A stretch of 30,247 bases of DNA from an uncultured Collinsella sp. Its GTDB lineage: Bacteria; Actinomycetota; Coriobacteriia; Coriobacteriales; Coriobacteriaceae. A program made the translations under genes and the position numbers. Shown piece by piece: positions 14,396 through 19,666 of the stretch. A model generated the notes under the pieces. The model saw only the letters and a list, made by a program, of their open reading frames with translations. It ran no database searches and was not told where the DNA came from. The stretch covers positions 1 through 30,247 of the forward strand of contig URYU01000005.1 in assembly GCA_900552155.1 (NCBI GenBank). Direction: 5' to 3'. Position 1 is the stretch's first letter; each line of letters begins with the position of its first letter.

Positions 14396-14922
14396 AGGGT
14401 AGGCGGCCTGTCGGCGCACTGCTGGTGTTTGCCTGTGTGGTTGTGGCGGTGGCAGTGGCGGTTTGGGGGCTAAACGCCGCGCGGCAGCAGCGTCCTGGGG
14501 CCGCCTTCGATTCGGGCTCAGATTCGGCGGTGGCGTCTCAAAAAGATGAGATGCGAGATGCGGACGATTCGGATGTCGCTGTCACGGCGCAAACCTTTCT
14601 GCGGATGCTCGACAAGCGGTCTGGCACTGCGACGGATTCGCCTGAGGACAACGCGATTGCGGTCCGGCTTGCATGGTCCGAGGACCGACCGATGACCGAG
14701 GCAGCGGCGGATATGTTACGCGCCTACCGCGAGGTGCCAACGGCCCAGCTCGCCCTGAGCGGCTATCTCGATATTAAGGGTAACGTATGGGGCGCCATTG
14801 TGCGCGATGGGCGCGGCTGGGTCGATATGGTGACGGTTGCCGCGGATACTGGCGATGCTTCGTGTCGTCTGCGCGCGGTGCGCCTGGCCCCGCAAACAAT
14901 AAGCTCAAAGGAGGGGTCGTGA
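14359..14922 (+). CDS. hypothetical membrane-anchored protein of the Tad operon
   Basis: A 187-aa protein I do not recognise. It has one N-terminal membrane segment (GALLVFACVVVAVAVAVWGL, about 19-38), an acidic, low-complexity stalk (48-75), and a small globular domain (80-180) with GYLDIKGNVWGAIVRDGRGWVDMVTV, which looks like beta-strands outside the membrane. It starts 37 bases inside the flp gene in another frame; the nearest SD-like sequence (GGGCAAGG, 14341-14348) is weak, so coupling to flp translation is likely. Position between the pilin and pseudopilins suggests a pilus assembly or minor subunit role. It is not a pilin by motif. Confidence 0.7.
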   Translation: MERYQRGHQQPVEGRRPVGALLVFACVVVAVAVAVWGLNAARQQRPGAAFDSGSDSAVASQKDEMRDADDSDVAVTAQTFLRMLDKRSGTATDSPEDNAIAVRLAWSEDRPMTEAAADMLRAYREVPTAQLALSGYLDIKGNVWGAIVRDGRGWVDMVTVAADTGDASCRLRAVRLAPQTISSKEGS

Positions 14923-14923
14923 A

Positions 14924-15142
14924 ATGCATGACGTCCTGCGCGAGGAATCTGCCCAGGCGACGGTCGAATACGCCATCGTCACGGTGGCGCTGTTATCGAT
15001 CGTGCTGGCGTTTGCGGGGCTTTGGCGTGCTGGCACCGTTGGGCACTTGGCGGCGCTGGTTGAGCGGGCGGCAGCCCATGGCGTTGCCTCGACGTCGGTT
15101 ATCGACGCTGCTGCGGGCGCTAAGGACATCGCGTTGTATTGA
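14924..15142 (+). CDS. small TadE/Flp-like pseudopilin
   Basis: A 72-aa protein with a very short leader, MHDVLREESA, followed by QATVEYAIVTVALLSIVLAFAGLW, a pilin-like hydrophobic helix with the conserved Glu (E15) and Tyr. The rest (26-72) is a small Ala-rich domain. It resembles a minor pilin of TadE/TadF or Flp type. The strong SD AAAGGAGGGG (14907-14916) supports ATG 14924. The next gene starts inside it in another frame. Confidence 0.8.
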   Translation: MHDVLREESAQATVEYAIVTVALLSIVLAFAGLWRAGTVGHLAALVERAAAHGVASTSVIDAAAGAKDIALY

Positions 15143-15614
15143 TATCGCGCGCGAGGACCGGGCGCAGTCTACGGTCGAGGCTGCTTTTTTGCTGCCGACG
15201 TTTCTGATGCTCATTCTTCTCGCACTGCAACCGGTGTGTTTGCTCTATACGCGCGCGGTCATGGAGTCTGCCGCTGCCGAGACCGCGCGGCTCATGACCA
15301 CGACGACGGCGGAGGACGACGATCTTAAGGAGTTCACCCGCCGCCGGCTTGCCGCAGTGCCCAACGTTTCGATCTTTCATGCCGGCGGGCCGTTGTCGTG
15401 GGATATCGAGCTTGGCCGGGCCGGTGCGGGTGGTGTCTCGTCCGTGTCCGTTTCCGGCGAGGTCAAGCCGTTGCCTGTGATCGGTGCGTTTGCGCAGGCT
15501 ATGGGTGGTACCGCCGAGGGCGGCTACGTTGAGCTCAAGGTCGATGTCTCGTATCAATCGCGTCCCGAATGGCTGGAGGGAGATTATGATTCGTGGATTG
15601 CTGCATGGGATTAA
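15078..15614 (+). CDS. TadE-like minor pilin
   Basis: A TadE-family protein with REDRAQSTVEAAFLLPTFLMLILLAL near its N-terminus, the standard pseudopilin processing site and helix (Glu5 equivalent in TVEAA), then a globular region with VMESAAAETARLM typical of TadE. From ATG 15078 it has 178 aa and overlaps the previous gene by 65 bases. No ATG, GTG or TTG lies closer in frame; AAGGA at 15122-15126 would instead suit ATT 15138, which would give a leader as short as in the neighbouring pseudopilins. The start is therefore uncertain. It overlaps the next gene by 29 bases. Confidence 0.8.
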   Translation: MALPRRRLSTLLRALRTSRCIDIAREDRAQSTVEAAFLLPTFLMLILLALQPVCLLYTRAVMESAAAETARLMTTTTAEDDDLKEFTRRRLAAVPNVSIFHAGGPLSWDIELGRAGAGGVSSVSVSGEVKPLPVIGAFAQAMGGTAEGGYVELKVDVSYQSRPEWLEGDYDSWIAAWD

Positions 15615-19305: not shown

Positions 19306-19378
<73 letters not shown>

Positions 19379-19391
19379 CCTTGAATTGACT

Positions 19392-19421
19392 AGGACCTCT
19401 GCAAAGGGGTCCTTTTCTTTT
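19392..19421 (+). terminator. terminator after tRNA-Phe
   Basis: AGGACCTC (19392-19399), 6-base loop, GGGGTCCT (19406-19413), followed by TTTCTTTT. Confidence 0.85.
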
Positions 19422-19435
19422 ATCGAGGGCTCTGC

Positions 19436-19666
19436 GGAAATTGCGTCCCGGAATTTGGCTTCAGAGTGGGATGCGTTTTCCGCTTTGATGTCGCTTGGGA
19501 AAGCGCGACCCGGAATCCGGCGTCAGAATGGGACGTGCTTTCCTTTTGCGGCCTTTGGCGGAAACTGCGTCCCAGATCTCGCGCTCAGAACGGGATGCAT
19601 TTTCCGATTGAGGCCTCGAACGGAAAATGCATCCCAGTCTTTTGCGAAAAACGGGATGCGCTTTCC
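19436..19666 (+). repeat. four tandem 62-bp hairpin-forming repeats
   Basis: Left arms (GGAAA..GCG.CCC type, 14 nt) start at 19436, 19498, 19560 and 19622, exactly 62 bases apart. Right arms (GGGA.G..TTTCC type) start at 19468, 19530, 19592 and 19653. Loops are 18, 18, 18 and 17 bases; the gaps between units are 16 bases each. Arms of a unit pair at 12-13 of 14 positions counting G.U. Open frames cross the array on both strands, but their periodic products and lack of SD argue against coding. I see no cas genes and no unique spacers. Confidence 0.85.

Follow-up and report, generated by a model that had tools for sequence, protein, structure and literature searches.

In the accessible parts of the literature cited here, the BIME-2 elements of enterobacteria are described as intergenic, tandem rows of alternating inverted units that are regularly spaced and vary in number (PMC2817692), an architecture also set out in PMC8266576. 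REPs usually number more than 100 copies per genome (PMC2817692) and are frequent between convergent genes (PMC1525189), and experiments in E. coli found BIME-2 to be bound and cut by DNA gyrase (PMC6379681). The phyla with GTAG and CGTC repeats listed in the accessible part of PMC3733652 do not include Actinobacteria, and its main text, to the same extent, mentions neither Actinobacteria nor Collinsella. The open-licence literature searched on Collinsella yielded no BIME-like repeat family, and the available part of PMC6006769 gave no match to the four names looked for; the family described below could, unnamed, be among the 3161 candidate structured RNAs (250 of them palindromic) that PMC8040213, in its available part, reports from human microbiomes.

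The stretch of DNA analysed here (the window; 30,247 nt from an uncultured Collinsella sp.) carries at 19436-19666 an array that can be compared with these elements. With moderate confidence, we read this array and its relatives as BIME-like rows of helically phased, inverted half-sites that serve, at the level of DNA, a putative DNA-binding protein. The initial annotation of the window had offered three readings, of which a protein-binding array and an expanding repeat family fit the data presented below and a multi-hairpin small RNA does not.

Layout of the array and its recurrence in one clade

The array consists of eight 14-nt arms, alternately GGAAA-N6-CCC and its reverse complement, whose starts lie 32 and 30 bases apart in turn (31 for the last pair), giving a period of 62 (Table 1). 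Four 62-bp units in exact register had been noted initially, and the left arms do recur every 62 bases, with loops and spacers of the lengths tabulated. The placement between tRNA-Phe and a GH5-like gene likewise stands: upstream lie a tRNA-Phe gene (19306-19380) and then a terminator-like hairpin (19392-19413), and the other neighbour is a GH5-family gene. Farther upstream, 14787-15614 encodes a TadE-like domain protein that may belong to a gene group for a Tad-type pilus (only the domain was seen).

Table 1. Elements of the array in the window, in order of position.
Feature	Coordinates	Strand	Basis
Arm 1, left form	19436..19449	+	arm pattern
Loop 1, 18 nt, directional type RGAAT...CARAAY	19450..19467	+	
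Arm 2, right form	19468..19481	-	arm pattern
Spacer 1, 16 nt	19482..19497	none	
Arm 3, left form	19498..19511	+	arm pattern
Loop 2, 18 nt	19512..19529	+	
Arm 4, right form	19530..19543	-	arm pattern
Spacer 2, 16 nt	19544..19559	none	
Arm 5, left form	19560..19573	+	arm pattern
Loop 3, 18 nt	19574..19591	+	
Arm 6, right form; complementary without mismatch to arm 7 over spacer 3	19592..19605	-	arm pattern
Spacer 3, 16 nt	19606..19621	none	
Arm 7, left form	19622..19635	+	arm pattern
Loop 4, 17 nt	19636..19652	+	
Arm 8, right form	19653..19666	-	arm pattern

A loose arm pattern (at most one mismatch) matches eight times in the window, always inside the array, against a chance mean of 1.8; because eight matches were also reached in 2 of 100 shuffles, the arm count alone is weak evidence, and it is the register, together with the recurrence of the R-arm/16/L-arm pattern across genomes, that confirms the array as a genuine feature. 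Tandem Repeats Finder did not report the 62-bp array in the window, as its units are too diverged. The absence of such a tandem-repeat call, and loops and arms that follow one consensus in place of near-identical direct repeats with unique spacers, agree with the initial rejection of a CRISPR array.

Copies elsewhere, with unit numbers that vary between orthologues, bear out the proposal of a repeat family. BLAST searches with the array region gave 14 matches in the nearest genome (G001) and 9-25 per genome in 22 of 43 genomes of the genus, while the strict R-arm/16/L-arm pattern matched 11-34 times per genome in 22 of 65 genomes of the bacterial family and never in the other 43; its reversed control matched in none of the 65. 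Allowing up to two mismatches, the unit pattern matched 28 times in G003 and 42 times in G024 (reversed control, once each). The GH5 neighbour is 98-100% identical to that of the window in the 22 array-bearing genomes and 64-74% identical in the 21 array-free genomes of the genus, and the arrays therefore mark one Collinsella clade. Among the genomes searched, they are intergenic repeats dispersed through members of the C. aerofaciens group. Scanning contigs of reference genomes yielded at least 120 stretches, all from Collinsella among the 80 matches listed. A phage origin was rejected, the viral collection having no exact three-arm match.

The 188 loci collected, together with the window, comprise 156 distinct arrays of 3-17 arms in approximately 21 site clusters, in which neighbouring sites may be merged. 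With a cut-off of three arms, single units fall outside this collection; they do occur, and were found at the window's site in genomes of the clade. The pattern GGAAANYGYRTCCC matched 25 times in G003, always at array loci and once out of register, and 48 times in G024, where 46 matches fell at array loci and the other two, on contig C2, make up a pair spaced by 30 bp. It had no match in two array-free genomes. Consensus arms in G003 and G024 are confined to arrays or phased pairs, with none far from other arms.

Conservation of arm ends and pairing between arms

Thinning to 55 arrays leaves 402 arms, whose consensus reads GGAAA-S-Y-G-C-R-T-CCC and is conserved at 95% or more in its end positions. 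Loops are 18 nt long in 181 of 185 cases and spacers 16 nt in 146 of 162; as arms were recruited via their constant ends with a spacing tolerance of 1 bp, this conservation of ends and spacing carries an ascertainment bias. The oriented loop consensus, RGAAT ... CARAAY, is partly so by construction, since loop direction was fitted. Between orthologues, the arm ends GGAAA/CCC differ at 67 of 3452 positions (1.9%), and the arm centres (479/2593, 18.5%) diverge faster than loops (476/3554, 13.4%), spacers (385/2622, 14.7%) or the partly coding flanks (1697/23530, 7.2%), with element labels in these counts taken from one sequence only. A stricter count over 68 orthologue pairs, with labels agreeing in both sequences, gives 1.7% for ends, 19.5% for centres, 13.7% for loops, 16.1% for spacers and 7.2% for flanks, and it is unlikely that the arm cut of two mismatches in eight could by itself produce the tenfold difference between ends and centres. 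Changes between orthologues at arm positions 7-10 are mostly C/T and A/G; at position 6 they are G/C swaps (48 of 82).

Arm ends that are invariant, with no swapped base pairs, argue for sequence recognition; the conserved property of the arrays thus appears to be the sequence of the arm ends, which would point to a protein that reads it. Inverted half-sites of the form GGAAA-SYGCRT-CCC placed 32 and 30 bp apart, or about three helical turns, would all sit on approximately the same helix face, where a putative sequence-specific DNA-binding protein could bind them cooperatively.

The initial annotation had supposed that the diverged units keep their arm pairing, and had taken a bias towards G.U pairs as a hint of selection on + strand RNA. 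A transcribed multi-hairpin RNA, either a small RNA or a 3'-end structure, with its + strand fold under selection would suit the strong fold of the window array (z -8.8 on the + strand, -7.0 on the - strand), its position behind tRNA-Phe and the terminator-like hairpin, and the stability of hairpins formed across the spacer (see below). The six transition-type differences between arms of the same unit in the window do, as originally counted, include five that give G.U on the + strand, the sixth giving A.C; mismatches of other types occur at three more positions. However, re-dealt partners reproduce the G.U bias in the collection at large (loop-oriented G.U to A.C, 178:124 observed and 185:131 re-dealt), so that the excess reflects arm composition rather than pairing. 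Nor was pairing found to be kept: identity at arm positions 6-11 is 0.536 within units and 0.523 between different arrays, Watson-Crick pairs within units number 590 against 578 +/- 14 with right arms re-dealt, and no pair of in-unit arm columns covaries above chance in 181 units (zMI at most 0.3, zWC at most 1.8). The strongest column couplings in these units mostly join columns no more than three apart, and loop columns 20 and 27 give a weak covariation signal (zMI 4.3, zWC 2.9). Swapping right arms left the folding energy unchanged: on the two strands, 15 and 11 of 25 swaps matched or exceeded the stability of the native units. Two further observations sit poorly with a transcript: gene calls put 6 of the 24 arrays of G003 and G024 between divergent genes (one of them L064, the window's site, where the caller had ignored tRNA-Phe), and Rfam placed only two tRNAs of the window at or above the gathering score, its eight matches in the array region being sub-threshold. 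A small RNA with selected structure was rejected in view of the covariation, the partner shuffles and the swapped-arm energies, and we consider the broader proposal of a transcribed multi-hairpin RNA quite unlikely.

The arrays resemble a series of regularly spaced DNA half-sites more than a structured RNA, and they contain hairpins because their inverted half-sites have one consensus in common. Arm pairing may still play a minor role, for which cross-unit hairpin stability, loop columns 20 and 27 and site-level identity can be cited: when each site contributes a single array, identity within units comes to 3.47 against 3.21 of 6 (p 0.018, or 0.16 without perfect pairs), and over all units 9 of 185 in-unit pairs are identical at positions 6-11 where 4.9 are expected. 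The spacer was also considered as an inner hairpin and rejected, spacers being less self-complementary than swapped halves.

Turnover of units and genomic placement

Orthologous arrays often differ by approximately 62, 124 or 186 bp, and units of 62 bp may be lost or gained through recombination between arms. The tRNA-Phe/GH5 site is readable in 19 of the 22 clade genomes and holds four units in three of them, three in five, one in ten and a single arm in G035; with a range from one arm to four units, the array is dispensable at this site, which counts against the protein-binding reading. In eight array-free genomes the gap from tRNA to GH5 measures 71-326 bp and has no array, with isolated loose arm matches in three. 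Since the number of units at a fixed site varies between species, the arrays could serve as typing markers.

The same gap appears to carry an extra ~186 bp past the tRNA-Phe terminator in 13 of the 19 readable genomes (loci L210, L211, L214-L217, L220, L222-L224, L226, L227 and L229), where its sequence was seen in nine genomes and its presence inferred from shifted arm positions in four. The tRNA-Phe 3' end and its terminator are repeated at the end of the extra stretch, which thereby resembles an integration scar or a tRNA-derived element. The window lacks it behind its own tRNA-Phe terminator.

Pairs of arms facing each other across the spacer are identical at arm positions 6-11 in 18 of 162 cases, against 3.7 expected (9 of 68 when a single array is taken from each site, where 2.3% is expected). 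The excess is all-or-none, the remaining pairs being as by chance, and because of it hairpins across the spacer, that is, between units, have a stability that none of 25 swaps reached. Among arms at least two positions off their orthologue, 24 of 188 equal their cross-spacer neighbour, 12 of 278 their in-unit partner and 27 of 1238 a distant arm, counts in which states come from related genomes and are not independent. Palindrome copying, in which one arm is copied onto its palindromic neighbour, is a mutational mechanism. As selection on pairing should yield graded rather than all-or-none enrichment, the perfect pairs look like the result of such copying, which would now and then rewrite an arm interior from the arm over the 16-bp spacer. 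Block conversion specific to arms was rejected, since changes are overdispersed in arms (variance 1.38 against a binomial 0.78) and in loop and spacer centres too (0.97 against 0.57). Adjacent loops within arrays point the same way in 89 cases and opposite ways in 26; shufflon-like loop inversion was likewise set aside, with no in-place inversion among 187 orthologue pairs of equal arm number.

Variable unit numbers, arrays that can be nearly absent and arms identical to the one over the spacer would all be expected if the arrays were non-functional relics of an old repeat burst, their ends alike through copying between arms rather than selection. We nevertheless regard this as very unlikely: arm centres have not been homogenised, arms of one array being as diverged as arms of different arrays, and arm ends stay fixed in situ, whereas copying alone would not spare the ends only. 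Phased half-sites for a DNA-binding protein remain our preferred reading.

Nearly all distinct arrays (150 of 156; 23 of 24 in G003 and G024) overlap no called ORF. Of the 24 arrays of these two genomes, 10 have convergent neighbours, 7 have tandem and 6 divergent ones, and 1 overlaps an ORF call, compared with 6 convergent, 29 tandem and 22 divergent among 57 array-free gaps of at least 150 bp at the same loci; the genes were called ad hoc with tRNA genes ignored, so that L064 counts as divergent, and orthologous sites are counted twice in the 24-array tally. When distinct sites were tallied by hand, convergent placement accounted for 10 of 23, against 6 of the 57 array-free gaps (Fisher p 0.0018).

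Along the chromosome, 19 of 21 mapped array sites fall within the first 61% of the replichores, counted from the origin (KS p 0.037, with the cut selected after the fact), and two are closer to the terminus. Distances refer to the located dnaA, with G024 contig C1 taken as a whole circle and sites absent from G003 or G024 placed by their flanks; two sites were omitted, 16 for its weak flank matches and 15 because it occurs on G024 contig C2 only, L053 (one unit, one mismatch) was kept, and site 20 (duplicated flank) was put midway. The bias is weak, and placement is a lead rather than a result. It is conceivable, if rather doubtful, that a clade-specific chromosome-organising protein loads onto the arrays and polymerises along their helically phased, inverted half-sites, the arrays being placed by preference at convergent gene ends and in the origin-proximal part of the chromosome. 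A role for the arrays may also lie in, for example, the handling of supercoils between genes. The main contigs of G003, G024 and G002 each show an array-free arc of ~0.93-0.95 Mb, centred in G003 and G024 near the point opposite dnaA; two sites from other genomes map inside this arc or at its edge.

Comparison with REPs, BIMEs and other protein-site systems

If the arrays were REP/REPIN-type miniature elements moved by a Y1 (RAYT/TnpA-REP) transposase, the single-stranded hairpin and conserved ends would be its recognition target. The architecture of the arrays is that of BIMEs (PMC2817692), and all 22 array-bearing genomes have Y1_Tnp matches, as do 15 of 21 array-free genomes of the genus. 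Among 20 sampled loci, the Y1 proteins from array-bearing genomes fall mostly into three groups with no array-free members, in a tree that is weak, with long branches, and that places the array-bearing L195 elsewhere, probably through a wrong frame. Against this, array-bearing genomes have 56 Y1 matches, and at the 12 of these loci that were examined no arm with intact ends lies within ~1.2 kb, so that no RAYT gene flanked by repeats was seen among them. All seven Y1 matches in G003 and G024 are more than 70 kb from any array on the main contig. Among the 402 arms, neither terminal tag is conserved: GTAG is absent from the conserved columns, and CGTC is possible in at most 134 (CG at positions 9-10). 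The palindrome shows no compensatory changes within units (181 units) and, across the spacer, only the all-or-none excess of perfect pairs; arms within an array are as diverged as those between arrays, with no sign of recent dispersal; and the unit matches in G003 and G024 fall well short of 100 per genome. Mobilisation by a Y1 transposase is therefore an unlikely account, and we class the family as a BIME-like variant outside the REP family, since its tag, its copy number, the surroundings of the Y1 genes and the lack of compensatory changes do not agree with REPs. Four Y1 transposase matches in G007, on contigs C1 and C6, share one score and length (167 aa), as would a multi-copy IS200-type element.

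The sites of Noc and SlmA form terminus-poor protein-site systems. The arrays resemble them in their origin-side placement, but their bias is weak, with two sites closer to the terminus, and their motif differs from those of Noc and SlmA. With REPIN/RAYT systems and CGTC-tagged repeats the arrays have in common short, inverted palindromic repeats outside genes, although the tags conserved there are not conserved in Collinsella arms.

A BIME-like repeat family is hereby added in a common human gut genus, and the case illustrates how covariation tests can undo the appearance of a multi-hairpin RNA, given that conserved inverted half-sites form hairpins for free. Naming the putative binder would tell what such arrays do outside the proteobacteria. 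Compared with BIME-2, whose binding by gyrase is experimental, the Collinsella arrays have a putative binder; they carry no GTAG tag, had no arms beside the Y1 genes examined, comprise tens rather than hundreds of units and show no compensatory in-unit changes. They nonetheless share with BIME-2 an intergenic, tandem arrangement in which inverted units alternate, are evenly spaced and vary in number (PMC2817692), and with REPs an apparent preference for positions between convergent genes (PMC1525189).
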